A stretch of 64,000 bases of DNA from Thermoplasmata archaeon (GTDB lineage Archaea; Thermoplasmatota; Thermoplasmata; Thermoplasmatales; GCA-001856825), in contig JAJZYT010000006.1 of assembly GCA_021797915.1 (NCBI GenBank), positions 1-64,000 on the forward strand, read 5' to 3'. Under the pieces are notes generated by a model. The model ran no database searches, was not told the DNA's origin, and was given only the letters and a program-made list of their open reading frames with translations. Each line of letters begins with the position of its first letter. Position 1 is the first letter of the stretch. A program made the translations under genes and the position numbers. This document shows positions 2,733-44,680 of this stretch, piece after piece.

Positions 2733-3491
2733 CTAGTCTGCCTCGGTCAGGAAATCTCTGACCTCCTCGATCTCTGACTCGAAGAATTCACTACCCGTGC
2801 CTTTCGCGACGAACTTACCCTCGTAGATCAGGTTTGTATAATCCGACACCTTCCTGGTCAGATTCATATCATGGGTCACAAGAATGACTGTGTATTTCTG
2901 CTTCAATGCTCTGATGAGATCCACTATCTTCCCCTTTGCTATTGGATCAAGTGCGCTTGTTGGTTCATCGAACATCAGCACTTTGGGTCGCAGGACAAGT
3001 GCCCTTGCTATGCAGAGTCTCTGCTGTTGTCCCCCAGATAGAGAGGTTCCTCCCTGTTTCAGGTTCCCGCCCAGCTCTTCAATGAGGTCGGCGTCCTCAA
3101 GGGCCTGGTGTATCATCTTGTCCATTTCATCCTTCTTCAGCTTCTTTCCCTGTATTCTCAACCCGAAAGCAACATTATCATATACAGACATTGGGAAAGG
3201 ATTGGGTTTCTGAAAGACAAGTCCAATCTCCCTTCGCAGCTCAACGGGATCAATGTCCACGATGTTTCTCTTCTCAAATAGTACATCACCAGAAACATCC
3301 ATACTCGGATCCATATCCAGTAGTCTGTTCAGCGACCTAAGTAGGGTACTCTTCCCGCTTCCCGATGGTCCAACTATGGTGTTCACACAGTTCTTGAAAA
3401 TGTTGAGATCTACTCCATCGAGTATCACCTTGTTCTTTGTCTCAACTTTCAGCCTTTCAATCTCAATTATTTTTTCCACCTTTTCTTCCAT
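2733..3491 (-). CDS. pstB: phosphate ABC transporter ATP-binding protein PstB
   Basis: Walker A GPSGSGKST, LSGGQQQRLCIARAL, DEPTSALDP; ATG at 3489-3491, so the ORF-track start is over-extended into pstA. Confidence 0.95.
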   Translation of the reverse strand: MEEKVEKIIEIERLKVETKNKVILDGVDLNIFKNCVNTIVGPSGSGKSTLLRSLNRLLDMDPSMDVSGDVLFEKRNIVDIDPVELRREIGLVFQKPNPFPMSVYDNVAFGLRIQGKKLKKDEMDKMIHQALEDADLIEELGGNLKQGGTSLSGGQQQRLCIARALVLRPKVLMFDEPTSALDPIAKGKIVDLIRALKQKYTVILVTHDMNLTRKVSDYTNLIYEGKFVAKGTGSEFFESEIEEVRDFLTEAD

Positions 3492-3493
3492 AT

Positions 3494-4363
3494 CTATTGC
3501 CTCCTTCCAATATACTTTGAAATCGCAATCAAGCCCGTCACACTGAGTATCAGAATCATTGCAGAAACAAAGGCAAGATAATGCGAGTAGGTTGTCGGGT
3601 AATTGATGCCGTTCCAGACTACATAGGTGAGATATCCCACTCCCGAATGCGTAAAACCTGTGGCATAGTTGTTGTTCCACCCTGCGGAGTAGAGTAGTTG
3701 TGCTGTCTCTCCTGCTGCGATACTCACTGCGAGGAGTATCCCAGAGAGCATCCCTACCTTTGCCTGGGGCAGATATATTCTGGAAGCGACCCTGATGTCA
3801 TCAGCGCCTAACGCGTACGCGTTTTCAATCTGCTCTTTGGGGATGTTCCTGAAGGAAATTTCTATTATCCTCATCAAGTACGGTAGCATCATGACAGCGA
3901 GTGCTAGACCTCCCGCTATCAGTGAATATCCCATATCCAATCTCTGTACCAGAACGATGAATGCAAAGAGTCCTATTACTATGGATGGAACGCTCGTCAG
4001 CACATCCGTGAAGAGACGTGCTACCAGCGAGAGTGTTCCATTGGATCTTCCGTTCACAACGTAGAGAGCTCCCAGGACACTCGGGGGGAGTGAAAAAAGG
4101 AGTCCCATACCGACGAGCTCCCAGGTACCGACAATTGCGTTCAGAATTCCGCCCGTTGCTGTATTACCGGGAGTAATCAGCATAGTCAGCGTTATGTGGG
4201 ATGCACCGGAATCAAGTATGTAGATGAAGATAGATACCAGGATTACCACCATCATTCCAAGGACCACGTAACTCAGCCCTTTTGCTATGGTATCCTTCAA
4301 CTTTCTAGAACCGATCTTTTTCCATTGTATTTCCCGCCTGTTACCCGTATAGGAGCTAGTCAC
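3494..4363 (-). CDS. pstA: phosphate ABC transporter permease PstA
   Basis: Polytopic permease with EAA-like loop (ENAYALGADDIRVASRIYLPQA); position between pstC and pstB. Confidence 0.9.
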   Translation of the reverse strand: MTSSYTGNRREIQWKKIGSRKLKDTIAKGLSYVVLGMMVVILVSIFIYILDSGASHITLTMLITPGNTATGGILNAIVGTWELVGMGLLFSLPPSVLGALYVVNGRSNGTLSLVARLFTDVLTSVPSIVIGLFAFIVLVQRLDMGYSLIAGGLALAVMMLPYLMRIIEISFRNIPKEQIENAYALGADDIRVASRIYLPQAKVGMLSGILLAVSIAAGETAQLLYSAGWNNNYATGFTHSGVGYLTYVVWNGINYPTTYSHYLAFVSAMILILSVTGLIAISKYIGRRQ

Positions 4364-5333
4364 CCTCGTACCCCCTTAGTGATCCTCTTCCTGCTATCTT
4401 TCTACCTATCAAACTCACTGTGAGTGAGATCGCCATAAGCACGACTCCAAGTGCTGCAAGAGCGGCTAAATCCATCCTCGTCGAATCGGTAAGTGCGCTG
4501 TCAAGTAGTGAAGCTATTGCTGCTGACATAGTGTTGGTTGCAGAATAGAAACTCGTGGGAAGGATGTTCGTCACTGCCCCACTGACCATCAGTACGGCCA
4601 TAGTTTCTCCAAGCGCCCTCCCCAAACCAAGAAGGGTACCGCCCACCGTTGAGGCTCTGGAGTACCTTGTCGTTAGATACTTTCCGACCTCCCATTTAGT
4701 CGCTCCCAGAGAAAAGAGGCCCTCCTTGACCTCCTTTGGTACGGAATCAAAAGAGTTGACAATGACTGAAGTTACAATGGGTATGATCATGAAACTTAGA
4801 ATTATCCCTGAGGCTATCAATCCAGCCCCACTGTATATTTCCCCCTTCAGACCTGGGATGAAGGAAAGATGCTGTGCCATCCACGGCTCTACGTTTCTGA
4901 ACAGGATCGGTTCGAGTACGATTATTCCCCACAGCCCATAGACAACGCTTGGAATCCCTGCGAATAGTTCGATCATAGATACCATGAACTTCTTGATTCT
5001 GGCTGGAAGGTAGAGCTCGACGTTCAGGGTTATCAGGAAGCTGATTGGAAATGCAATGAGAATGGCAAGGGCAGATGTGCTGAGTGTGCCCAGTAGGAAT
5101 AGATCGAGTCCAAATTGAGCACCTGGAGGAGCTAGGATTCCGTGAACAATGATCGGTTGCTGGTACTGAAATCCCGGGTTCCAAAGATAGGTCGTAAAGA
5201 AAGAAAGGCCGCTAAACTTCCACAATGGTAATGATTCTTGGAAAACAAAGACAAAAATAGAAATCAGGGCCACCGCTGGTACGATGGCCATCAAGAAAGT
5301 GAAAAAATTAAAGATTCTGTTTGTGGCTTTCAT
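4356..5333 (-). CDS. pstC: phosphate ABC transporter permease PstC
   Basis: Polytopic permease, EGLFSLGATKWEVGKYL loop, GRALGETMAVLMVSG motif; pst operon context. Confidence 0.92.
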   Translation of the reverse strand: MKATNRIFNFFTFLMAIVPAVALISIFVFVFQESLPLWKFSGLSFFTTYLWNPGFQYQQPIIVHGILAPPGAQFGLDLFLLGTLSTSALAILIAFPISFLITLNVELYLPARIKKFMVSMIELFAGIPSVVYGLWGIIVLEPILFRNVEPWMAQHLSFIPGLKGEIYSGAGLIASGIILSFMIIPIVTSVIVNSFDSVPKEVKEGLFSLGATKWEVGKYLTTRYSRASTVGGTLLGLGRALGETMAVLMVSGAVTNILPTSFYSATNTMSAAIASLLDSALTDSTRMDLAALAALGVVLMAISLTVSLIGRKIAGRGSLRGYEGD

Positions 5334-5339
5334 CTCTTC

Positions 5340-7406
5340 CTAACCCGTAATCTTGTTGACAAGCGGATAAACGATCTGTGTCACTACAGATGAAGGCAGC
5401 GCAACCAGGTTAAACCCGCTGAGGTAGTTTGCTGCAGCTCCTCCATTCCCACTCACTGCGAATTTTATGAAAGCTTGCAAAGCGGATGCAATTGCCGGAC
5501 TTGTCTGATTGGTCTTCACGACTATGTACTCCATGTCAGCAATTGGATAGGAATCGTTTCCAGGAGCATATTGCAGTCTTACCGTCCCATTTGCAGGTAT
5601 CTCCGAGAGATAGTGCGATGCTGCATTCGAGACATTCTGAACCGTAGGACCTACAAACTGTCCGTTCTGATCTTCGAGATTTGCGACCCCGAATCCTGCG
5701 GAATGAATCTGTGCTTCATAAGTTGCTGCAATATATCCTATCGAATATGGAGTCGATGTCATTGTGCTTATGATGCCAGCATTCTGAGCTCCAGTCTGTC
5801 CTGCTGCTACGGATGGCCAGTTCACTGCTGTTCCATAAGAAACGCTCTTTGCCCATGTGCTGTTGGATAGGCTCAGGAACGATGTGAACATGAAGGTGTC
5901 TCCGCTTCCGTCAGATCTGTGCACAGGTATGATCGTATGGTTTGGAAGAGTCACGCCCGGGTTAAGGGCTGCAATGGCAGGGCTGTCCCAATTCGTAATC
6001 GTACCCATGTATATGCCAGCTATCACGTCACCATTAAGCTTGAGTGTGGTGGTCACTCCGGGTATGTTGTATGCTATGTACTGATAGGAAATCGCAATAG
6101 GAATGTTCTCGACGTAGGGATACTTGCTTGCAGTACTGTAAGGCATGTATGCATCAGATGCACCTATCACCACTGTCCCTGCAATGGCACTCGATATCCC
6201 AGTCCCGCTCCCTGTAGAAAGGGTTGTTATCGTCGAGTTGGTGTAGTTCTTTGCCCACGAATTGAAGACCGGGTAGAGCAAGCTCGACCCAGACTCTGAC
6301 AATGTAACAAGTGTAGCTCCAGATACAGCAGTTGATATTTGGTTTATCAAAGGATTGATGATCTTCTGAACAACATTAGATGGAAGGGCTACAAGATTGA
6401 AGACCGACAGGTATTTATCGGCCGATCCTCCGTTCGGACTCACTGCCCATGTTATGAACGACTTCAGTGCACTTGCAATAGATGCACTCGTCTGGTTCTG
6501 CTTTACTATTATGTACTCCATATCTGCTATCGGATATGAGTTGCTGCCTGGAGCGTACTGTAGTGCTACCGTCCCATTTGCGGGAATCTCGGTAAGATAT
6601 TGCGAAGCAGCAGCTGAAACGTTAGCAACCGTAGGTGCAACGAATTGACCAACCTGATTTTCCAGAAGTGCCACACCGAATTTAGCTGACTGCACTTGGG
6701 CCTGGTATGTTGCGGCAATATATCCTATCGAGTATGGAGTCGATGTCATTGTGCTTATGATGCCAGCATTCTGAGCTCCAGTCTGTGCTGCTGCTACGGA
6801 TGGCCAGTTCACGGTAGTTGCTGCTCCGACCTGCTTGGCCCAAGTAGCATTTGATTTACTCAGGAACGATGTGAACATGAAGGTATCCCCACTACCATCT
6901 GACCTGTGTACTGGAATAATCGTATGGTTGGGTAGTGTCACACCGGGATTGAGTGCTGCAATGGCAGGGCTGTCCCAATTCGTAATCGTACCCATGAAGA
7001 TTCCTGCAATTATGCTTCCATTCAGTTTCAAGGTCTCACTCACTCCGGGGATGTTATATGCTATGTACTGGTATGAGATCATTATGGGAATGTTCATCAC
7101 GAACGGATACTTCTGAGCATCACTGTAAGGCATGTATGCATCGGATGCACCTATCACCACTGTCCCTGTAATGGCACTGGAAATTCCAGTCCCGCTACCA
7201 GTTGAAAGCGTTGTAATCGTAGCATTGGTATAGTTACCTGCCCAGGAGTTGAAAACTGGATACAAAAGAGATGATCCAGACTCTGAGAGAGTAACCTTTG
7301 CTGGCTGTGGGTTGTTGTTCCCCGAAAGGACTACCGCTGCTACTGCTCCAACGACAACTATCACGACAACTACTACTGCAATTATTGCTATCGTTGACCT
7401 ATTCAT
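5340..7406 (-). CDS. pstS: membrane-anchored phosphate-binding protein with two tandem PstS domains (688 aa)
   Basis: N-terminal hydrophobic anchor, then two copies of LSESGSSLLYPVFNSWA..., STGSGTGISSAI, HRSDGSGDTFMFTSFLS; first gene of pstSCAB. Confidence 0.93.
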   Translation of the reverse strand: MNRSTIAIIAVVVVVIVVVGAVAAVVLSGNNNPQPAKVTLSESGSSLLYPVFNSWAGNYTNATITTLSTGSGTGISSAITGTVVIGASDAYMPYSDAQKYPFVMNIPIMISYQYIAYNIPGVSETLKLNGSIIAGIFMGTITNWDSPAIAALNPGVTLPNHTIIPVHRSDGSGDTFMFTSFLSKSNATWAKQVGAATTVNWPSVAAAQTGAQNAGIISTMTSTPYSIGYIAATYQAQVQSAKFGVALLENQVGQFVAPTVANVSAAASQYLTEIPANGTVALQYAPGSNSYPIADMEYIIVKQNQTSASIASALKSFITWAVSPNGGSADKYLSVFNLVALPSNVVQKIINPLINQISTAVSGATLVTLSESGSSLLYPVFNSWAKNYTNSTITTLSTGSGTGISSAIAGTVVIGASDAYMPYSTASKYPYVENIPIAISYQYIAYNIPGVTTTLKLNGDVIAGIYMGTITNWDSPAIAALNPGVTLPNHTIIPVHRSDGSGDTFMFTSFLSLSNSTWAKSVSYGTAVNWPSVAAGQTGAQNAGIISTMTSTPYSIGYIAATYEAQIHSAGFGVANLEDQNGQFVGPTVQNVSNAASHYLSEIPANGTVRLQYAPGNDSYPIADMEYIVVKTNQTSPAIASALQAFIKFAVSGNGGAAANYLSGFNLVALPSSVVTQIVYPLVNKITG
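5343..6308 (-). repeat. PstS domain copy 2 (residues ~367-688), direct repeat with copy 1
   Basis: See copy 1. Confidence 0.9.
6309..7295 (-). repeat. PstS domain copy 1 (residues ~38-366), direct repeat with copy 2, offset 987 nt
   Basis: Near-identical nucleotide blocks, e.g. the tract starting at 6721 versus the one starting at 5734 (tatcctatcgaRtatggagtcgatgtcattgtgcttatgatgccagcattctgagctccagtctgt). Confidence 0.9.
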
Positions 7407-7749
7407 ATACTCTCAAATCTGAGAATTTTCGCCCGTACTTATCTAAATTCAAATGTGTATCATAGGTGTTCATAAGCACAAGTAGCAGTACTTACAATAC
7501 ATAGTAGACATTATTCTCCATACTACCGCTTCTATTGTATCCGTAAAAATAATTTCGGAAACAAGCTATGTAAAACGGATAGAATCAGGGATTTATCCAC
7601 GATTTTAGGAGTCAGTGGGACTTCAGACGAGCCTAACCATATTTATACGATACCAGCTGGGCCTAGGATAATCCACGCACGGCAGGTCATTCATTAAATA
7701 CAGCAACATTCTCGGAAGAGAGTAAATATATTATTTTGTTAGATTGTTG

Positions 7750-8130
7750 ATGGAGATTAGAAAACGAAGAATGGTTAAGTTGACATCTATATTCGTTGCT
7801 CTAGAGACAGCATTTATGTACTATGTTATAGGTCTATTCTATCTCAGTAGAATACCAGGTACCCCATTCCAATACTTTCCAGGTCTTGGTTACATCATCA
7901 AAACTTTCTTCCCAGTTTACTGGGATGTCAACTATCAAATTGGACCTGGGCATATATTCACACACCAACAGGTAGGAGCAGCACTTGTCCAGTTTCACAA
8001 TGGGGAACATTTCATTCTAGGGTTCTGGTATGGCCTGATAATTGCAGCTGCTATAACTGCTGTTATATACATCTTTGAACTCAAGAATTTTGATAAGACG
8101 AAACCAAAAGCACTCACTCAGGCTGTATGA
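7750..8130 (+). CDS. small integral membrane protein of unknown function
   Basis: ATG at 7750 with TATA-like taaatatatt ~26 nt upstream (leaderless); ORF with several hydrophobic segments and a His-rich loop (GHIFTHQQVGAALVQFHNGEHF). Confidence 0.65.
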   Translation: MEIRKRRMVKLTSIFVALETAFMYYVIGLFYLSRIPGTPFQYFPGLGYIIKTFFPVYWDVNYQIGPGHIFTHQQVGAALVQFHNGEHFILGFWYGLIIAAAITAVIYIFELKNFDKTKPKALTQAV

Positions 8131-8574
8131 GTAAATTCTCTCATAAAATCCTAAAAGGACAGGATGATCAACATGTGTCCAAGAAAATAAAAGCAAAAAA
8201 TTAGACAAGTTTCGGTCTTGAGAGTGGGCTGCTTGTTGCTTTAATCACGCAGGGTTTGTAACTATTCAAACTACCTAGAAATTTGAGTTATTATACTGAA
8301 AAATCGGTTCACCGTTGTATTGGGTAGTGATGAAATTGTTGATGATATTCTAGTCTGAAACGGACATTTGATTCATTCTGACCTAGAGAGCTTTAAGAAG
8401 CGGCTATGCTTTCTCATAGAATAGGAATTTTGAAGATAGTGGACGATTCAATAAGAATAGAGATCCATTGAAGACACCAAATCGCAAATCTGGAAACGTA
8501 TACAAATTGGCCAATCCTCAAGATTTTAAAGCCGTTAGCTGAGAAGAAAATTCTGCCAAGATTCTTCTGGTTAA

Positions 8575-12197: not shown

Positions 12198-12446
12198 ATG
12201 GTTCAGCCCATTCAAGCAGAACATGATACCTCCCGAGATCCTGCAAAGAAAAAGTTGCTTACTGTCTCGATTGTAATTGTAGCAGTGGTGTTGATCTCTT
12301 CCTTGCTGTCCTCCGACATTTCCTCTCGATTCAGTCGAACTACTCTTAAAAGTTTTAGGTTATTTACAAAACAAAATCAATCACTGCCGTCCGGACCTGG
12401 ATCATTGGTCGTACTGGCTGTAAATGGAGGGGTACGTTTTCACTAG
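12198..12446 (+). CDS. hypothetical short protein with one predicted TM segment; possibly a gene remnant
   Basis: 82-aa ORF with N-terminal polar segment then LLTVSIVIVAVVLISSLL; its 3' end runs antisense into kdpC. Confidence 0.25.
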   Translation: MVQPIQAEHDTSRDPAKKKLLTVSIVIVAVVLISSLLSSDISSRFSRTTLKSFRLFTKQNQSLPSGPGSLVVLAVNGGVRFH

Positions 12447-12845
12447 ATACAGGTTGACTTCCAAAACATTGACATATGGCGTTCCAAAGAAGAACAGCGT
12501 GTACTGCCTGTACTTCAGCAGTGTAGCATTAAGCACGGACTCGGAGATACCGGTGGCATTGTGTATCCTCGGTACCTGACTCATTGCGTCTTTCAACGTT
12601 ATATCCGGGTCTACCCCTGAAGCGGAGTCGTTTCTGGGATGGAAGAATACTGGGACGGTGAAATTCTGTGCTATGAGTTCGGAACCAATTGACTTTCCAT
12701 CGTAATAAACCTGTGAACCGTTCGACTGCCACGGGAGTGCTACCTGACCTATTCCGGTCATGACTATGGGAAATACGAGACCGCATATCAGCAACGATAT
12801 GAGGGCGAGTCTCACATTTGTGGACAGGCTCTTTACTCCTTTCAT
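12402..12845 (-). CDS. kdpC: K+-transporting ATPase subunit C
   Basis: N-terminal TM, GSELIAQNF, FHPRNDSASGVDPDITLKDAMSQVPRI; downstream of kdpB. Confidence 0.93.
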   Translation of the reverse strand: MKGVKSLSTNVRLALISLLICGLVFPIVMTGIGQVALPWQSNGSQVYYDGKSIGSELIAQNFTVPVFFHPRNDSASGVDPDITLKDAMSQVPRIHNATGISESVLNATLLKYRQYTLFFFGTPYVNVLEVNLYLVKTYPSIYSQYDQ

Positions 12846-15007
12846 ATCGTCACCCTGAGAACAGTTATGAGAATCGCAATGAGTTTAATTCCGATGAACG
12901 GGAGCACTATTCCACCAAGTCCGTAGATAGTCACGTTCTTCAGGAAAATCTTCATCGTGCTGGACGGTTTGAACGTATTCCCCCTCAGTGCAAGGGGAAT
13001 CAGGGCTGGTATGATTATGGCATTGAATATGAGCGCGGAAATGACAGCGAGGTGTGGGGTGAGGTGCATCAGGTTGAGCGCACCCAGTTCTGGCAGTGCT
13101 GCGAACATTATTGGCACTATGACGAAATACTTCGCTATGTCATTTGCTATGCTGAAAGTTGTGACCGTCCCTCTCGTCATCAGAATCTGTTTACCGAGCA
13201 TGATCACGTCTATTATCTTAGAAGGATTTGACTCGAGATCTACCATGTTGGCTGCTTCCTTTGCAGGCTCTGTACCTGACGCCATGGCCAATCCAACATC
13301 TGCTGCTGAGAGTGCGGGAGCATCGTTCGTCCCGTCTCCAATCATCGATACAATCTTTCCTCTCTTCTGTTCTTCCTTGACAAATTCGTACTTGGTTTCT
13401 GGCCTTGCCTTTGCAATATAGTCGTCTATTCCTACGTCCTTCGATATGAAACCAGCGGTGGTCGGCTGATCCCCTGTCACCATGACCACCTCGATATCCA
13501 TTTCCTTGAGGGCCTTTATCTTCTCCCTGACTCCAGGTTTGACCTCATCTTTCAACTTTATGAACCCGATGACATCTCCTGTCTCTGCAACCGCCATAAC
13601 CGTTGCACCATCTTCGGATATCTTTTCCAGCATCTCGTCATATCCTGGCGGTTTAATCTTCACGTAATCTATTATAGCATCTGGGGCGCCCTTCACTATC
13701 TCCAGTTCCTGTTGCGGCTCGTCTCCTGATGCGAACTTTCTCCTGAGCCTCTTCCTCTGGAGTATCCCCCTTCCACCTTTCGGGAGTTGAAATTCGTTAG
13801 AGCCGGTCATCTTCACGCTGCTTCTCCGGGTAGCAGCGCTGAATTCCTCGAATTCTGACCGCTCTATGGATCCAAATTGATGAGGCACGAAGCCGAGGTT
13901 GTATGCGAGTTCGACTATGCTCTTGCCTTCTGGAGTATCATCTTCCCAGGATGAAAGAAGCGCCGCTTCACCGACTTCCCTCTCCGTGTGGTTTCCTGCA
14001 GGCACGAACATTACAGCTTTCCTCATACCTTTTGTTATCGTTCCTGTCTTGTCCAGTAGAAGGGCATCTGTGTCGCCTGATGCCTCTATTGCCTTCCCAG
14101 ATTTTGCGATAATTCTCTTGACAGACATCCTGTTTATTCCCGAAATTCCTATTGCGGGTAGAAGTGCTCCTATTGTCGTAGGAAGCAGGCAGACGTAGAG
14201 GGCGATTACAACGGCGAGGTCTATGCCAAGTTTCAGCTCCACTCCGAGGAAGAGCAAAGTCACAACAATTATTGTAAATATGGCAGAGAATCCGGCGATG
14301 AGAATTGTAAGTGCAATCTCGTTCGGTGTTTTTGGTCTAGAAGAAGATTCCACAAGACCGATAAGTTTACTGACATAAGTTTCGTTGGGATTTGTCGACA
14401 CTCTGGCTACTAGACTGTCCGTTGCAACCAATGAACCACCGAGAAGGGTGGAACCCACAGATTTCCTCACGTTTGCCGATTCGCCTGTCAATAGAGATTC
14501 GTCAACCATCGCAATGCCCTCGAGAACCTCCGAGTCTATCGGTACCTTGTCACCGTGTTCCACCAGGATCAGGTCTCCCTTCCGAAGATCGTCCGAATGA
14601 ACCGTTTCAAAATTGCTTCTGTTTGACGACAGCAGCCTCTTTGCAGTCATCTGTTCCTTCATCTTTCTGAGACTGGATGCAGTGTTTCTGATCTGAGCTT
14701 CCGCTATTGAATCTGAAAGTGTGCTGAACCACACCGTTATTATAAGTATCAGGGCGACTTCAGAATAGAACAGCTGCTCCCGACCGCTAGAGACTATAGG
14801 GATGAGAGTGGGGTCTATTGCCATCAGTAGAACTATGAAGAACATGAGTTCGGTGATGAACATTACAACGTTTGACTTCAGTACCCACGGGTTCAGCCTC
14901 TTCAGTGAGTCGATTATTATCGAGGACCAGTGCAATTCGTTTTCAACAATCGCGTTCGTATCAGAGGGCAAAGATGACACCCCCGAGACTGGTCTTGAAA
15001 CTCTCAA
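12842..15007 (-). CDS. kdpB: K+-transporting P-type ATPase subunit B
   Basis: DKTGTITKG, DESLLTGES, MIGDGTNDAPALSAADVGLAMASGT. Confidence 0.97.
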   Translation of the reverse strand: MRVSRPVSGVSSLPSDTNAIVENELHWSSIIIDSLKRLNPWVLKSNVVMFITELMFFIVLLMAIDPTLIPIVSSGREQLFYSEVALILIITVWFSTLSDSIAEAQIRNTASSLRKMKEQMTAKRLLSSNRSNFETVHSDDLRKGDLILVEHGDKVPIDSEVLEGIAMVDESLLTGESANVRKSVGSTLLGGSLVATDSLVARVSTNPNETYVSKLIGLVESSSRPKTPNEIALTILIAGFSAIFTIIVVTLLFLGVELKLGIDLAVVIALYVCLLPTTIGALLPAIGISGINRMSVKRIIAKSGKAIEASGDTDALLLDKTGTITKGMRKAVMFVPAGNHTEREVGEAALLSSWEDDTPEGKSIVELAYNLGFVPHQFGSIERSEFEEFSAATRRSSVKMTGSNEFQLPKGGRGILQRKRLRRKFASGDEPQQELEIVKGAPDAIIDYVKIKPPGYDEMLEKISEDGATVMAVAETGDVIGFIKLKDEVKPGVREKIKALKEMDIEVVMVTGDQPTTAGFISKDVGIDDYIAKARPETKYEFVKEEQKRGKIVSMIGDGTNDAPALSAADVGLAMASGTEPAKEAANMVDLESNPSKIIDVIMLGKQILMTRGTVTTFSIANDIAKYFVIVPIMFAALPELGALNLMHLTPHLAVISALIFNAIIIPALIPLALRGNTFKPSSTMKIFLKNVTIYGLGGIVLPFIGIKLIAILITVLRVTI

Positions 15008-16637
15008 GGAATTGAAGGATTGGTCCTAGTACTAGGAACGGGAAAAATGTGAGAACGGTCAGGATGAAAATGCTGACCACAAGAATGACGACAAAACTTA
15101 TGGTGCCGGTCTTTAGGCCCTGACTTGGCGTTCTCTTCCTCACGGCCACGCTGTCTGCTATTGCTAGCATGAACAGCATCGGAAGGTACCTTCCGAGCCA
15201 CATTACGATCCCCGTCGTCACGTTGAAAAATATTGTGTTTCCGGATGCTCCGAGGAAGTCGGAACCATTGTTGGCAGCTGAAGACGTGAACTCATAAAAT
15301 ATCTGAGTAAAACCTATGGAGTTTGCCGTTAGTCCGGCCGCCTTTTCTGCTCCTATTGCGAAGGCAAGGACAGTAGGCACAAGGATGATTATTGGGTGAG
15401 TTAGAAATGCCATTACTGCAAGCTTCACGTCCCTCCCCTCAATCTTAATGCCCAGATATTCCGGAGTCCTACCTGCCATCAGACCGACCAGGAAAATGGT
15501 GACTATGACGTACATTATCAGATACATTGCTCCGATCCCTTCTCCCCCTGGAGCTCCCTGTATAAGCATACCTATGAATCCTGATAAAATGACAACAGGA
15601 TTGAATGCTGCCAGAGATGCGTTAACCGAACCCGTAGTGAAGGCAGTTGTCGTGACAGTCCAGAACACCGAGGCAGCTCCTCCATACCCGATTTCCAAAC
15701 CCCTCCCAGTGTGAGCCATTGGAAGAAAAGCGATAATCAAATCAATTCCATAGATGGCGTATGCGGCGAGGAATAGCGTCCTTCCTTCCCTGTTGTCCCC
15801 TACCATTCGCCCGAACATGAACAAAGTTGCGGTGGGAATGAACATCATCATCCCCAATTCCAAGAAATCTGTTATCTGGCTCGGGTTCTGGAGGGGATAA
15901 GCTGAGTTGGCGCCGAAGTACCCTCCACCGTTTGTTCCAAGCTGCATTATGGAAACGAGGGATGCGATCGGTCCCCTATAGAGTATCTCGTAAGCATCCT
16001 TCTGGAGCGTTGGAATCGATGTGTAACCACCCAAGCTCTGCGGAATGCCAAGTGCTATCAGGACCAAGGTGGCAATGAATGTGAGCGGTAATAGTACCCT
16101 AGTGAGTGACCTTACGTAGTCGAAGTAGAAATTACCTATCGTTCTTGCCTTGCCGGCAAATCCTCGCAAGATCGCTACTCCAGCAGCCAATCCTGTTGCT
16201 GCTGAAGTGAACTGAAGGAACTGAATTGCGGACATCTGGCTCAGATATGAGAGCGTCGTCTCGCCGTTATAGTGTTGTAAGTTTGTATTTGAGGAGAAAG
16301 AGAGAACTGTATTGAGCGCAAGGGACCAAGACATCCCCTGGTAGTGCATCGGATTGAGTGGGAGGTTAGCCTGAAACATCAGTATGAAGAGGGCGATTAC
16401 CGCCTGTGCTACGTTCAGGTAGAAAAGGGCCTTGAAATATTCCTTCCAACCCATGTTCTTGGTACTTTCGATTCCTGATAGAGTATATATGAAATTCTCT
16501 ATCGGCTTGAAAAACTTGTCGAGCCTGCTCTTGCCGCCCGTGAATACTGTGAAGAGGTATTTCGAAAAGAACCAAGAGAATACTATGACTACCCCCCAAA
16601 CGACTGCAACGACGAACAGGTCTTCGATTGAGAGCAT
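14961..16637 (-). CDS. kdpA: K+-transporting ATPase subunit A
   Basis: KdpA selectivity/pore segments (TNLQHYNGE, GTNGGGYFGANSAYP, SSAANNGSDF); ATG preferred at 16635-16637. Confidence 0.95.
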   Translation of the reverse strand: MLSIEDLFVVAVVWGVVIVFSWFFSKYLFTVFTGGKSRLDKFFKPIENFIYTLSGIESTKNMGWKEYFKALFYLNVAQAVIALFILMFQANLPLNPMHYQGMSWSLALNTVLSFSSNTNLQHYNGETTLSYLSQMSAIQFLQFTSAATGLAAGVAILRGFAGKARTIGNFYFDYVRSLTRVLLPLTFIATLVLIALGIPQSLGGYTSIPTLQKDAYEILYRGPIASLVSIMQLGTNGGGYFGANSAYPLQNPSQITDFLELGMMMFIPTATLFMFGRMVGDNREGRTLFLAAYAIYGIDLIIAFLPMAHTGRGLEIGYGGAASVFWTVTTTAFTTGSVNASLAAFNPVVILSGFIGMLIQGAPGGEGIGAMYLIMYVIVTIFLVGLMAGRTPEYLGIKIEGRDVKLAVMAFLTHPIIILVPTVLAFAIGAEKAAGLTANSIGFTQIFYEFTSSAANNGSDFLGASGNTIFFNVTTGIVMWLGRYLPMLFMLAIADSVAVRKRTPSQGLKTGTISFVVILVVSIFILTVLTFFPFLVLGPILQFLESFKTSLGGVIFAL

Positions 16638-16737
16638 GATGACACCTACAGGCTGGACCTCAAGAGCGCCCACATACCTAAAGTGATAGCCATAACGATC
16701 TCAATGCATCCAACAATTAAAATATTACAATATCCAA

Positions 16738-26006: not shown

Positions 26007-29000
26007 TCACTTGTATTTCTTGGGTATCATCTGCTCGTACCATTTCTCAGTGACCTCATCGCTCTCAGGTCTCTCCAGTTTGATATTGATTGACTGAAGG
26101 TATTTCGAAATCCTCTTCTTCGTTTCATCCCTGAGTTCGGTAGTAATGGAGAGCTTGTTTCCTGATCTCTTCCCTTTGAAGAATATAGGATCGTACCCGT
26201 CCCTTAGAAGGACCATCTTTCCCTGCGGTTTCCATCCGAGTATCAGGGAAACGTGCTCCATAGGGAGTGTCCTTGGCAATAACACAACATCCTCACTTCT
26301 TGTCGGAGGGGAGAAGCTCTCGTGCTTCCAGGTGTACATTATCTCGTCCCTGGATTTTAGTGGAAGAATTCTCTGGAATTTCCCCTGTTCCATCCCCGTT
26401 GAGAGGTAGCTCGAGATGTAATTTCCGTTCATTGATTGGCCAAGGATATTGGACAGTATCCTTCCATTGAATATACCTAGTTCTTTTGATATTCTGTCCA
26501 TTGCGGATTCGCTGTTGTCAAGAATCTGGGTGAGTTGATACCTACCTTTGTTGTCTTTGTATACTATGCACTTTTTCAACATTTCATTCAGGTAGTTCAG
26601 TGTTTGATTTATCGTAAAACAGGACCGTTCAACAATTGCTTCCCTTGAGAGAGTAGGCATTTTTCTTATAATCTCGTAGAGCTTCTTTGCATTGTCGCTG
26701 AGGGAGTTGTACTTAATCGAAGCAAGAAGTGCAACGTTCTCCTTGCTGAGATAGCCCTGGGAGCCGTCGACCAGGTAACCTTGAACTGCCAGGTTGCTCA
26801 TCACCAACTTTTCGAGATCTATGCTTCTGTCACTCTTCATCATGAGCTCAAAATTCCCCTTGTAGCCAAGTATTGAATCCAAAGCAACGACCGGATCCGA
26901 GTGCTTGTATCCATTTGTAAAGTGATGCTTCTTCACGAGGTAATGAATCATCTGCTCCTCGTCCATGGACAGGTCGTCAACGGTCGTTCCATTTACCATG
27001 AAATTTCTTACCATTGAGTAACCAATAATATCCATCTGTTCTTTTTCTGGTATCGGAAATGGAATTCTCCTGATCACCAGAGAATCGAATTTTTCTATCT
27101 TTGAAATTTCATTGACAACTTCCATTACCTGTTCAAAATTACCCGCATAATCTCCAGTGATTTCGAAAATCTCCAGGATGCCGTTCTCTGTTGCGGTCTC
27201 AATACCCAGACGAACAGCCCCGTCCTCAAGAAGGAAGAAAGTCATTCCTTCCCCTGTTTCACCCTCGATCCTCTCCCTGTTCATGAGGAAGAGCGGGTCC
27301 CTTGTGCTTATGACTGCCTTCTGTTTTGAAAACGCCAGATCGGTGTACAGGTATGTAGAGTGGCCACTGACCATCTTCTTGACGTTCAACTTTCCTATGT
27401 ATTTTCTCACCAGCACCCCGAAGGTCTGAACGATTTCTTCGATGCTGATCGGGCCGTAGGTTGAGATGAATTTCTCGAGGAGTTCTACAGGTTCCTGTGG
27501 TTCCACCTTTACGTTCACCGGTTTACCACCCTTCAGAACAACGTAGTTGTTCTTCATCAGTTTCTCGAAAGTGGTCTCCTCGATGTCCTCCACTCCGTAC
27601 CCTCCCTTCTTTATCTGATCTGTGACGTATTTGTCCTCTCTGCTGAGCTCTTCAATCCTGTTGAGTGAGACCATCTGTGGCAGGTACTTTTCGTCGAAGA
27701 ACCCCTTTATCGGCCCTGCAAAATGACCCCAAACTATGCCCTTTGAATTAATTTCCTCAGTTGAGTACCCTCTAACAGCCAGTGAATTTTCTGAGCTGGC
27801 AACGAGGTAACTATCAAAATAACTCTCACCCCTTCTCTCCAAAGACCTGTTCAACCTAATGCGTCCTATTTCTACCTCGTCTGTCGATCGTAATTTCTTC
27901 AGATCTTCTGACAGAATGTATTGCCTGTCGACCTTCGGGAAGAATCGCCCTGAAACGATCACTTTCTTGGTGGTCTGATCTTCGATAACTTCCTCAAGTT
28001 CGTTCATTTGGCCTATTCTGTCTACGATCTCGTTGAAGGTGAGAGGCCCGTTTTGCCACAACAACCAGAGCACTACTCTCTTCACAGATTCCACCTTCTC
28101 TGCCGTGTCGACTTTTCTGTTGTACCACTTCACCCTGTTCCCGTGTCTCAGGAAATAAGCGGTGTATGCTCTTTCCATCTTTCTAAGGACAATGAGCGCA
28201 GCCCCTGGATCGAGGTTGTTGTTCTTGGCGATCAAATTCGTGCTTTCTCCATCTTTGAAATCTAACTTATCCTCGCTCTCCTGCTTGAAGACTGATGCGA
28301 GATATGGTACGTTTTCCTTGAGCGTGTAGGTTGTTTTTCCCGTGAAAACGGGTACAATTTCCCCACTTGTAAGGTATTCGGAAACTGTCTTGAAGTAGTC
28401 TTCTGGAACATCCACTTTCTTGAGAGGTGAAAAGGAAACGGTCGAATAGATGTCAGCAAATCCGGCCTTGCGGAGGAATTCAATGATTCCGTTATTAGAG
28501 TCCATCAGCTGCTTTGATTCCTGGTAATTCATCAGAGATTCTATGTCCACTTCGGAGCTCCCTTCCAATCCCATCTTTGCAAGGAGAGCTTCCTGCAATT
28601 CCCGGATAATTGCACTCTTGTCCTCCATTAGCACCACATCGGTGATACCGGTGGATATTATGCCGAAACCAAACGGGCTGGGGTATCTGGTGTAATCCCT
28701 CGAAGCGACCTTTATGTCGCCGTCCCTGATGGAAGTTAGGATCTTCTCAGAGTTTCCGAGGTCCATGACTATGCCTTCTATTTCGCGGAACGTTTCCTCT
28801 ATTATCGGGAAATTTTCCATTGAAAAGAGTATGTTGAGAACCTTTTCACTTCTGAGCTGCTGTCTGGCCACAGAGACTTCTCTACCTCTGTATCTTCTAA
28901 GAACCATGAAGGAACGTGTGGCGCAGTGCCTGAATCGCTGCTTGAATAGTTCGGTGGACTTGACCGCATTTCTCAGGGAGCCTCCAATTTTTATCGTTTG

Positions 29001-31103
29001 CAACAGGTCCTGTATTTTCGTAACTTCGACCTTCCGGTTAAAGGTCAGCATGAAACCATCATCCGTGAGAGATATCCTAGAATTCACGGAGAAATTCCTT
29101 GAGATGTTGAACGCAATTATCCTGCTGAGTGCGTCGTTCACCCTCCTCCCATAAGCGAAGTGGAAAATGACTGAAAACTGTCCGGCCTTGTCAATATACC
29201 CTTCGATCAACAAACTATCGTGAGTGGGGACGCCGTAGTCCATCTGGTTTGTGATGTATGAAATGACACTCCTGACACTGTTCTCATCAGCCGCATATTC
29301 ATTCTTGAGAAATTCCTCAGCGGTTCCGTTCTTCATTCTTTCTTCAAGATTCTTTCGGAATTTTCCAACTTCAATTGAAAGGTCAAAAGTTCTGGGGAGC
29401 ATCTCTCCTACCCAGGATGGTACGGTCGGTTTCCTTCCAGAGGCGTCCTTTATGAAAACTTTATTCCCCCTCATTCGGAGGAATTCATATGTTCTGGCAC
29501 CTAGGACGAATATGTCCCCCCTGTGAAGTTTCTCAACGAACTTCTCAGACAGAGATCCAAGGTGCCTGTTATCGACTGAGAACGCGTCGTAATCAGCTTC
29601 CTCCGGAATCGTACCTGCATTTGTGAAATATATGAGTCGAGTGCTCTTCTTCCTCCCGAAGGTGTGTTCCTTCTTGTCCCACCATATCTTGGAATAAACA
29701 TTACCCTCCTCAAATCCTCCGGAGAGATAATTGAGCACGTTTAGAAAATCGCTTTCACTAAGATCCTTGTAACAGTATGTTCTCCTGACAACGTCCAGAG
29801 CCTCGCTTTCGTTCCATTTCTTCTCAAGCGATATCCCTGCAACGAACTGGCTCAGGACATCCAGCGAATACTTCGGAATCGCTATTCGATCAAGCTTCTT
29901 CAGCTTGGCTTCCTTGACCAGGACAAGTGACTCCACTAGGTCATCTATATCCATTGGAATGATCCTGCCCTTTGCAGTAGCGAAAACTGAGTGACCGGAC
30001 CTACCAACCCTCTGAAGACCTTTTGCGATACCCTTCGGAGAACCAACCTGAACCACCAGGTCAATACTTCCTATGTCTATACCAAGTTCCAGTGAAGTAG
30101 ATGAGACTGCACATTTTAGCTCGCCCTTCTTTAGTCTTTCCTCGACGTTGAAACGTGACTCTTTTGACAAGCTCGAGTGGTGGGCCTCAAGGTCAAGTAT
30201 ACCTCTTTCTATCAGTTTCGATGATACCCTTTCAGCTCCGCTTCTAGTGTTCGTGAAAACTAAGGTGGTGGTGTGTTCTTTGACCATGGCTTCGATTATG
30301 TCGTACGTCCTCTCGTTTATCTGCTCCTGAGGAGCCGAAAAGAGGTCTGAGACGGGGCAGACCACTCTCATATCCAGATTCTTGTTGGATTCGGCTTCAA
30401 CAATGTACACATCCAACTTGTCGACATTCCCGACCAAGAAACTTGCAATTTCATCTATGGGTTCGGTGGTTGCAGAAAGCCCTATTCTAGTCATGGTACC
30501 GGTTGTGTGTTGAAGGAATTCAATTATCAGACTAAGTAGCTCTCCTCTCTTGTTGGATGCGAGATCGTGGATTTCGTCGACGATCAGGAATTCAACTCTC
30601 CTGAATTTCTCCTTGAACTTCGGAGAAAACAGTGCAAGCGCAAGTGACTCGGGAGTCGTTATGAAGATGTGTGGAGGTGTCTTGTTCATCTTTTGCCTGA
30701 CATATTGGCTGGTATCGCCTGACCTCACTCCGACTCTGATCTTCGGTATGTGGATCCCTTTGCCCTCTGCGAGCTGCCTTATCTCTTCCAGGGGAACTTC
30801 CAGGTTTCTGTGAATGTCATTAGCAAGTGCCTTGAGAGGTGAAACGTATACGCAATAGATCTTATCCTCGAGCTTTCCTTCCTTCGCAAGAAGAAAAAGT
30901 TCGTTTATTGTAACAAGAAAACCGGAGAGGGTTTTCCCCGTTCCAGTTGGTGAAGAAATTAGTACATTCTTTCTCTGATGAATTAGAGGAATCCCAATCT
31001 TCTGTGCGGTAGTGGCATCGTTGTATTTAGAAGTGAACCACTCCAGCACCAAGGGATCAAGATATTGTTCCAGATTGTACTCATTATTACCTCTTATTAT
31101 CAT
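26007..31103 (-). CDS. lhr: very large Lhr-family SF2 ATP-dependent helicase (1698 aa) with long C-terminal extension
   Basis: SSPTGTGKTLSGF, VDEIHDLASNKRGELLSL, GLSATTEPIDEIA, STSLELGIDIGSIDLVVQVGSP, QRVGRSGH; C-terminal ~830 aa with winged-helix/AlkZ-like segments. Confidence 0.93.
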   Translation of the reverse strand: MIIRGNNEYNLEQYLDPLVLEWFTSKYNDATTAQKIGIPLIHQRKNVLISSPTGTGKTLSGFLVTINELFLLAKEGKLEDKIYCVYVSPLKALANDIHRNLEVPLEEIRQLAEGKGIHIPKIRVGVRSGDTSQYVRQKMNKTPPHIFITTPESLALALFSPKFKEKFRRVEFLIVDEIHDLASNKRGELLSLIIEFLQHTTGTMTRIGLSATTEPIDEIASFLVGNVDKLDVYIVEAESNKNLDMRVVCPVSDLFSAPQEQINERTYDIIEAMVKEHTTTLVFTNTRSGAERVSSKLIERGILDLEAHHSSLSKESRFNVEERLKKGELKCAVSSTSLELGIDIGSIDLVVQVGSPKGIAKGLQRVGRSGHSVFATAKGRIIPMDIDDLVESLVLVKEAKLKKLDRIAIPKYSLDVLSQFVAGISLEKKWNESEALDVVRRTYCYKDLSESDFLNVLNYLSGGFEEGNVYSKIWWDKKEHTFGRKKSTRLIYFTNAGTIPEEADYDAFSVDNRHLGSLSEKFVEKLHRGDIFVLGARTYEFLRMRGNKVFIKDASGRKPTVPSWVGEMLPRTFDLSIEVGKFRKNLEERMKNGTAEEFLKNEYAADENSVRSVISYITNQMDYGVPTHDSLLIEGYIDKAGQFSVIFHFAYGRRVNDALSRIIAFNISRNFSVNSRISLTDDGFMLTFNRKVEVTKIQDLLQTIKIGGSLRNAVKSTELFKQRFRHCATRSFMVLRRYRGREVSVARQQLRSEKVLNILFSMENFPIIEETFREIEGIVMDLGNSEKILTSIRDGDIKVASRDYTRYPSPFGFGIISTGITDVVLMEDKSAIIRELQEALLAKMGLEGSSEVDIESLMNYQESKQLMDSNNGIIEFLRKAGFADIYSTVSFSPLKKVDVPEDYFKTVSEYLTSGEIVPVFTGKTTYTLKENVPYLASVFKQESEDKLDFKDGESTNLIAKNNNLDPGAALIVLRKMERAYTAYFLRHGNRVKWYNRKVDTAEKVESVKRVVLWLLWQNGPLTFNEIVDRIGQMNELEEVIEDQTTKKVIVSGRFFPKVDRQYILSEDLKKLRSTDEVEIGRIRLNRSLERRGESYFDSYLVASSENSLAVRGYSTEEINSKGIVWGHFAGPIKGFFDEKYLPQMVSLNRIEELSREDKYVTDQIKKGGYGVEDIEETTFEKLMKNNYVVLKGGKPVNVKVEPQEPVELLEKFISTYGPISIEEIVQTFGVLVRKYIGKLNVKKMVSGHSTYLYTDLAFSKQKAVISTRDPLFLMNRERIEGETGEGMTFFLLEDGAVRLGIETATENGILEIFEITGDYAGNFEQVMEVVNEISKIEKFDSLVIRRIPFPIPEKEQMDIIGYSMVRNFMVNGTTVDDLSMDEEQMIHYLVKKHHFTNGYKHSDPVVALDSILGYKGNFELMMKSDRSIDLEKLVMSNLAVQGYLVDGSQGYLSKENVALLASIKYNSLSDNAKKLYEIIRKMPTLSREAIVERSCFTINQTLNYLNEMLKKCIVYKDNKGRYQLTQILDNSESAMDRISKELGIFNGRILSNILGQSMNGNYISSYLSTGMEQGKFQRILPLKSRDEIMYTWKHESFSPPTRSEDVVLLPRTLPMEHVSLILGWKPQGKMVLLRDGYDPIFFKGKRSGNKLSITTELRDETKKRISKYLQSINIKLERPESDEVTEKWYEQMIPKKYK

Positions 31104-43138: not shown

Positions 43139-44680
43139 TTACTCTTCTCTCCTGTACGAAAGTTTTACTGCACCCGTACCAAGGGTTATTGGTTGTCCCA
43201 CTATAATATTTTCTGCGACGCCATTGAGCCTCTCTACCTCTCCAATCAATCCGGCGTTCAGCAGATGCTTGCTCGTAATTTCGAATGCCGCCCTTGCCAG
43301 AACTGATGCCTTCTTTCCAGAGATCCCGTGCCTTCCGATCGCTTCGACGTTTCCTGAAAAAGTCATCATGTCAGAAACAAGCATTAGGTGCCTGATGTCG
43401 GTATTGAGACCTGCGTTGTGAAGTGTTGAGGTGCTCTCCTCGATGATCGCTTCCCTAGCTGCCTCGACCCCTAGGACCTGAGATATCTCTATGATGTCGT
43501 TCGTTTTTGTCCTGGTATAATCAACGTCCTTAAGTTCCATCACTCCAGCAAGGTTTGAGCCCTGAGTGTAGATGACCCATTCCTTTGCCTTCTGGTCAAA
43601 CTTAACTATTGCCCTCTTTATTCCGTCAAGCCCCTTGACCTGGAATGTTTTCAGGTTCTCGTACAGCTGGTAAATTTTCTTATACGATGGTTCTTCTTGA
43701 GAGAGTCTGATCTTGTTCTCTTCTTCGGAGATTGCGGTCTTTTGCATCCTAATTTTCTTTAGCCTCGGCATTATCTCTTCCCGCTTTAGTCCCCTCTCCT
43801 GCATCTTCTGCTTGTCCAACAGGATGAGGACATACCCCTCTGTCGTGTTGACTTCTATATCTGCTACGTCGAGCAGCGTGGTTGACTCTATGGATCTGGC
43901 AAGCGAGACTGCTCTGTCCTCGTCCCCTCTTGCCTTTTCTGTGAGGAAAATGGTCATTGAGGGAGTGCTCGGAGTCTTTCTTGCATCGACGATCTCGATG
44001 AGCCTCGGCAGACCGAGTGTGACATCCATTTCTGCGACACCTGCAAAGTGGAAAGTTCTCATTGTCATCTGCGTTCCAGGTTCACCGATGCTCTGGGCTC
44101 CCACTATTCCTACGGCCTCGTAAGGGTCGACGCCTGTCTCCTTGTACTTCTCCAGAGTGGCTTTAATCAGTTTTTCAAAGTCCTTCTCCCCAATACCATA
44201 ATGCTTCTTTGCCGCAGTCAGCTGTTCCGCTATTTTCACCGGCAGACTGTTCCCGTCCTTCTCTACCTGACGGATCAGGCTCTTGACCTCGCTGTTCAGC
44301 TTTCCTTCCATGTGATCTGGAAGTTCGATCTTTGCCTCCTCTTTCTTGACAATAACGGCATATGAGAGCACCTTATCGACTGAGCCCCCGGATACCTCCT
44401 CATAGTTAACTATGTCATCCTGTATTTCCTCGATCTTCTCTATCGTGATTAGTGTCTTGAGCTTGTCTTTCTTCTTCTTTAGAACGTTTTTCTCATTCTG
44501 GTATGGAGCAATCTTTGATATCTTTGCCTTTGCAACGAATGTCTTTCCCGTGACCGTTATTAGAGCTTCTTTTATCGATTTGTCCGCAGGAATCTCATAG
44601 TCAAGGCAGTATCCGATAGGGGCCTTTTCTAATATCTCCTTAACCTTCTTGAGTGTGTCCTTCCATGCAAGGATGGTCAT
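43139..44680 (-). CDS. rpoA2: RNA polymerase subunit A''
   Basis: [51 protein letters not shown]. Confidence 0.98.

Follow-up and report, generated by a model that had tools for sequence, protein, structure and literature searches.

Tandem PstS phosphate receptor with a variable number of binding domains and intragenic gene conversion in Thermoplasmatales archaea

A phosphate receptor carrying two tandem PstS domains behind one membrane anchor is encoded at positions 5340–7406 (minus strand) of the 64,000-nucleotide stretch of DNA analyzed here (the window), which comes from an uncultured Thermoplasmatales archaeon. The gene, pstS, is the receptor gene of a PstSCAB ABC importer. Its relatives within the genus (g1) encode one, two or three such domains. 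Taken together, the results are probably best explained by a recombination-driven tandem PstS of ancient origin, homogenized by gene conversion, with one to three working sites per anchor and a single translocator.

Results

Two PstS Domains Behind a Single Anchor

The initial annotation of this DNA had described one open reading frame (ORF) of 688 aa with one N-terminal anchor and two PstS modules. This architecture was confirmed and its coordinates were correct; the strand, which had not been stated, is the minus strand, since the plus-strand translation of 5340–7406 is riddled with stops. The offset of 329 codons (987 nt) proposed for the two modules was also recovered, 987 nt being the only offset within 960–1011 nt that gave more than 50% identity. 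The hydrophobic N-terminal anchor (MNRSTIAIIAVVVVVIVVVGAVAAVVLSGNNNPQP; 7302–7406, minus strand, as are all features of the pst operon given below) was assigned from the sequence and lacks a lipobox cysteine. It is followed by domain 1 (residues 37–359; 6330–7298), placed by domain matches and ligand-equivalent residues, by a short linker (6309–6329) that fills the gap between the domain matches, and by domain 2 (residues 367–687; 5346–6308), placed by domain matches and an AlphaFold2 model.

PstS is the textbook single-domain receptor, and the usual trait of one domain per protein did not hold here, with two domains in the window and between one and three in the genus. The PstS model TIGR00975 matched the protein in two separate stretches with 542.9 bits in total (cut-off 205), the separated halves scored 280.8 and 274.4 bits, and both halves matched PF12849. 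The two domains, of about 322 residues each, are 82% identical in protein and 69% identical overall in DNA. Their nearest solved relative is PstS-1 of Mycobacterium tuberculosis (phmmer E 3e-78), and this protein (7dm1) was also the best PDB match of the AlphaFold2 model of domain 2 (pLDDT 92, TM 0.97, rmsd 1.2). A type II periplasmic-binding-protein fold is thus predicted for domain 2 by the model and for domain 1 by its identity to domain 2. When the full double protein was modeled in AlphaFold2, the alignment was shallow and the pLDDT was 39.

The phosphate ligands of E. coli PstS, which we take to be T10, F11, S38, D56, R135, S139, G140, and T141, have S, L, S, D, R, S, G, and D as their equivalents in both domains of the window. 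The other aligned close Thermoplasmatales domains have the identical pattern, although some carry T instead of S at position 10. L at position 11 and D at position 141 are also the residues of close homologues, M. tuberculosis PstS-1 among them. A loss of all phosphate-ligand residues from one domain, an outcome considered in the initial annotation, was therefore not what was found, as both retain them. In comparison with L025, the nearest relative, dN/dS was low in domain 1 (0.044) and in domain 2 (0.036), which indicates strong purifying selection on both domains. Hence, both domains look functional and are predicted from their sequence to bind phosphate.

The gene is the first of an operon with the order pstS-pstC-pstA-pstB. 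One copy of the permease gene pstC (4356–5333; TIGR02138, 246 bits, above the cut-off) starts a few bases 3′ of pstS and is overlapped by one copy of the permease gene pstA (3494–4363), which scored 168.4 bits with TIGR00974, below the cut-off of 193, and exceeded the cut-off of PF00528. The ATPase gene pstB (2733–3491) scored 286 bits with TIGR00972, below the cut-off of 343, and exceeded that of PF00005. The TIGR00972 match begins at residue 72 of a long ORF, and the start of pstB is likely the ATG at 3491, not the upstream GTG. The window pstS is the sole PstS gene found in this assembly (1.32 Mb, 89% complete). A PiT-family transporter (PF01384), present in most members of the genus, was not found in the assembly; its absence is only suggestive because the assembly is incomplete.

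Other Open Reading Frames of the Window

A hydrophobic protein of 128 aa without a Pfam match is encoded divergently from pstS (7744–8130, plus strand). L025 has a conserved counterpart next to its pstS, split there into two overlapping frames, possibly through a frameshift. Further along, an Lhr-type helicase ORF of 1698 aa (26007–31103, minus strand) has Pfam domains only at residues 31–812, which leaves about 880 C-terminal residues without a match. An ORF for the RNA polymerase subunit Rpo1C (43139–44680, minus strand) has, before its Pfam match, some 180 residues that by eye resemble an N-terminal extension more than an intein. A putative kdpA-kdpB-kdpC operon for potassium uptake was also noted by eye (12402–16673, minus strand).

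The Number of Domains Varies Among Relatives

A search for double PstS proteins in related genomes, suggested in the initial annotation, found them within g1 and in two other genera of the Thermoplasmata, g27 and g51. Within g1, three domains were present in G007/L026 and G010/L028, two in G000, G001/L025, and G002/L027, and at least two in G004/L031, where a contig end lies inside the gene. A single domain was found in G009/L032 and only a C-terminal PstS fragment in G003. No PstS was found in 3 of the 11 g1 genomes (G005, G006, and G008); either PstS is dispensable in the genus or it was overlooked in incomplete genomes. The repeated unit measures exactly 329 codons in every two- or three-domain gene of g1 (unit starts, for example, at 41, 370, and 699 of the open frame). 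The anchor is much alike in relatives with one, two or three domains, and on contigs that extend beyond pstS, one gene each for PstC, PstA, and PstB comes next regardless of the domain number.

In g27, two doubles were found (L029 and L030), the remaining members having single domains. A third copy was considered for the L030/L043 genome: the first 397 nt of the L043 contig overlap the end of L030 at 96% identity, and L043 may represent a strain variant or another PstS unit. The doubles of g51, a genus of another family of the class (f15), were G167/L085 (704–3181, minus strand) and G080/L086 (608–3052, minus strand). Within a species, protein identity between their halves is 98%, as against 82–84% between species; over the first ~270 codons homogenization is near-perfect (99–100% in nucleotides), and the differences lie mainly in the tails. 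The g51 doubles would represent either independent recent duplications or near-complete homogenization, and the comparison of the tail regions favored neither. Eight long frames with a single match in the class survey (G314, G330, G219, G205, G202, G188, G287, and G382) were also inspected as candidates, and each has one domain.

Separately, in a bacterial metagenome-assembled genome (L046, bin.193), three separate and diverged pstS-like ORFs stand in a row ahead of pstC, pstA, and pstB (3835–8234). This is an amplification at the level of the gene, not of the domain.

The Duplication Is Older Than the Species of the Genus

A recent duplication had been suggested for the two copies. Nevertheless, domain trees and an approximately unbiased (AU) test showed that they are older than the split of the species of the genus. 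Across species, first domains cluster with first domains, and most last domains cluster with one another. In the IQ-TREE analysis, domain 1 of the window grouped with the first domains of L025, L026, L027, and L031 (support 83/85), and it is 94% identical in amino acids to the first domain of L026 and 82% identical to its own neighbor, domain 2. A lineage-specific duplication, in which the four domains of the window and L025 form one clade, was rejected (dlnL 133, p-AU 4e-80). The position-wise grouping and this rejection together mean that the duplication in the window gene is not recent. The four domains of the g27 doubles form one clade (support 100/100), which would fit an independent event or a fully homogenized pair.

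Gene Conversion Between the Domains

Patches of near-identical DNA shared by the two domains had been reported, and most of them are real. The exception is the HRSDGSGDTFMFTSFLS region, where the protein is identical between the domains and the silent sites have diverged over most of the length; this region therefore reflects constraint on the protein, not DNA identity. With a threshold of at least 18 nt, identical runs between domain 1 and domain 2 were located at 7168–7144/6181–6157, 7142–7122/6155–6135, 6996–6955/6009–5968 (a block of 42 nt), 6884–6859/5897–5872 (26 nt), 6812–6788/5825–5801, and 6786–6733/5799–5746. The last of these, of 54 nt, corresponds to the blocks that the initial annotation placed as starting at 5734 and 6721. 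A conversion tract, in which 79 of 80 nt are identical, spans 6733–6812 in domain 1 and 5746–5825 in domain 2.

The initial suggestion of ongoing gene conversion was borne out by a test in which codons were scored as same or different between domains and their clustering was compared with that of permuted codons. The longest run of same codons between the domains of the window was significant (p<0.0005), and such tracts were significant in nine of 11 within-gene pairs and in none of 10 orthologue pairs. The longest tract comprised 41 consecutive identical scored codons, between the first and third domains of L028. The place and extent of the tracts vary between species; those of the window and L025 are common to both, and therefore predate the split of these two.

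Selection at the DNA or RNA level, acting on codon choice or RNA structure, might also produce identical patches, and some sharing of codons would be expected where the tracts cover conserved protein segments. However, at sites with the same amino acid, the codon agrees between orthologous domains of the genus in only about 45% of cases; these domains show no tracts and do not share the silent codons at the same patches, and the tract positions differ between species. A reading of the patches as codon selection was rejected by these orthologue controls, and we regard this kind of selection as highly improbable, the more so as it cannot produce the swapped patch described next.

Over about 70 nt (6885–6954 in domain 1 and 5898–5967 in domain 2), domain 1 of the window matches domain 2 of L025 and vice versa. 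Of 207 informative sites between the window and L025, 14 consecutive sites are crossed and 192 parallel, with one isolated crossed site elsewhere. This patch is the strongest single sign of conversion in these sequences. Because ordinary conversion is one-way, the reciprocal swap would have to come from two events, from a double crossover or from alleles that segregate. The outgroups gave no polarity as to whether the window or L025 had changed. Furthermore, the single domain of L032 is like the first domain of L028 at its start and like the last domain of L028 in its later part (max-chi2 p=0.0005), as would be expected from the contraction of a longer array by recombination.

An artefact of assembly, be it a false tandem or a mosaic in which strains or paralogues were joined by phase switching, has to be weighed against these results. 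Nearly all of the genomes that have named records were assembled from metagenomes, from short reads, and arrays of identical blocks are sites where short-read assembly can drop, add or switch units; contigs end inside pstS in L031, L038, and L030/L043. The swapped patch, for its part, is bounded exactly by the identical blocks of 42 and 26 nt and might conceivably stem from a phase error in one of the assemblies. Nevertheless, the halves of the window gene differ at 31% of the bases, and the same layout recurs in separately assembled genomes whose pstC genes are 73–96% identical, so that the assembly duplication raised in the initial annotation is unlikely. The tracts, too, are common to the window and L025, which are separate assemblies, and no identical block in the window exceeds 54 nt, a length below the usual read length and the usual final k-mer of assemblers. 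An artefact is thus very unlikely to account for the gene as a whole.

Discussion

How a Tandem Receptor Would Arise and Work

In the explanation that we favor, the whole binding domain of 329 codons was repeated in frame and in tandem behind a single anchor at a time when the genus had not yet split into its species. Since then, homologous recombination among the units would have expanded or contracted the array to one, two or three domains, gene conversion has homogenized the repeats patch by patch, and purifying selection would preserve phosphate binding in every domain. Most likely, each domain would capture phosphate alone and dock in turn on the single PstC-PstA translocator, the tandem thereby offering more binding sites per anchored protein. 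Archaea of this type have no outer membrane, and the receptor is held on its anchor. We infer that both domains bind phosphate and deliver it to one translocator, the benefit being more capture per anchor; the raised local ligand capture proposed in the initial annotation is a plausible reading.

A receptor whose domains differ in affinity or in ligand (phosphate versus arsenate or organophosphate), as in GlnPQ, would be another outcome of the duplication. First and last domains did remain distinct through speciation, with the fixed differences G194/S, N250/D, T272/S, A281/R, K315/Q, K348/Q, and S358/T (domain-1 numbering). Against such a division, all eight positions equivalent to the phosphate ligands agree between the two domains of the window and nearly agree in all relatives, conversion repeatedly homogenizes the middle of the domain, and the halves of the g51 doubles are almost identical in protein. 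The two affinities suggested initially are therefore unsupported: the ligand residues are the same everywhere, the fixed differences are a handful, and conversion opposes divergence. The identical ligand residues and the conversion speak for "more of the same", and we consider a division of labor between the domains improbable.

Copy number might also be neutral, recombination adding and removing units and selection keeping the units functional with no effect on uptake. The occurrence of one, two and three domains among close relatives, and the apparent absence of the gene from some members of the genus, are what this would predict. However, at least two domains persist across species with a DNA identity of only about 75% in pstC, and three genera contain doubles, where neutral drift with easy contraction would tend to erase them. 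Neutrality is a minority reading in our view, although a more credible one than differing affinities. With equal reserve, the number of PstS domains may be seen as an evolvable dial: recombination between the in-frame repeats would alter the phosphate sites per receptor and conversion would keep those sites alike, so that receptor capacity could be tuned among, and perhaps within, populations while expression and translocator remain unchanged.

The natural series of one, two and three near-equivalent domains before one translocator makes the number of binding sites usable per translocator of an ABC importer directly testable, a question already raised by the tandem domains of GlnPQ. Additionally, it offers a clear case of conversion and copy-number change between repeats within one archaeal reading frame.

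Comparison With Known Systems

The window protein shares family, fold, ligand residues, and the operon with PstC, PstA, and PstB with the known PstS proteins of PstSCAB systems (TIGR00975; M. tuberculosis PstS-1, 7dm1/1pc3; E. coli PstS), and its domains have, like M. tuberculosis PstS-1, D for T at E. coli position 141. The solved PstS homologues that were matched have one domain, whereas the window protein has two complete domains per polypeptide (one to three in the genus). Among the open-access papers listed by searches on PstS and Thermoplasmata, none describes a tandem PstS in its title or in the opening of its abstract.

More than one phosphate receptor is also present in Synechococcus WH8102, with three PstS (PMC10846223), and in L046, but there as separate genes and proteins with no in-frame tandem. 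Gene conversion is known to homogenize the copies of duplicated prokaryotic genes, such as tuf, nifH, and rRNA operons, within one genome (PMC8223754); in the window it acts inside one reading frame, where the number of repeats changes as well.

A further likeness is to SBD1-SBD2 of GlnPQ from Lactococcus lactis, with serial binding domains, a short linker, and one translocator. In GlnPQ the two domains act largely on their own, each binding independently and with unchanged affinity, and they compete for docking (PMC8025302). By analogy, each PstS domain would bind phosphate and deliver it in turn. The GlnPQ domains, however, are joined to the transmembrane subunit, take amino acids as ligands and have different specificities, whereas the tandem PstS is a separate anchored protein of a different binding-protein family, with pstC and pstA as separate ORFs, apparently the same ligand for each domain and a variable number of domains. 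Therefore, the tandem PstS is analogous to GlnPQ and not a member of its family. The PstS family and the principle of tandem binding domains are known; what the papers listed do not describe, and what we regard as new, is the combination of a tandem PstS that forms its own anchored protein, a unit number that varies, and conversion within the gene.
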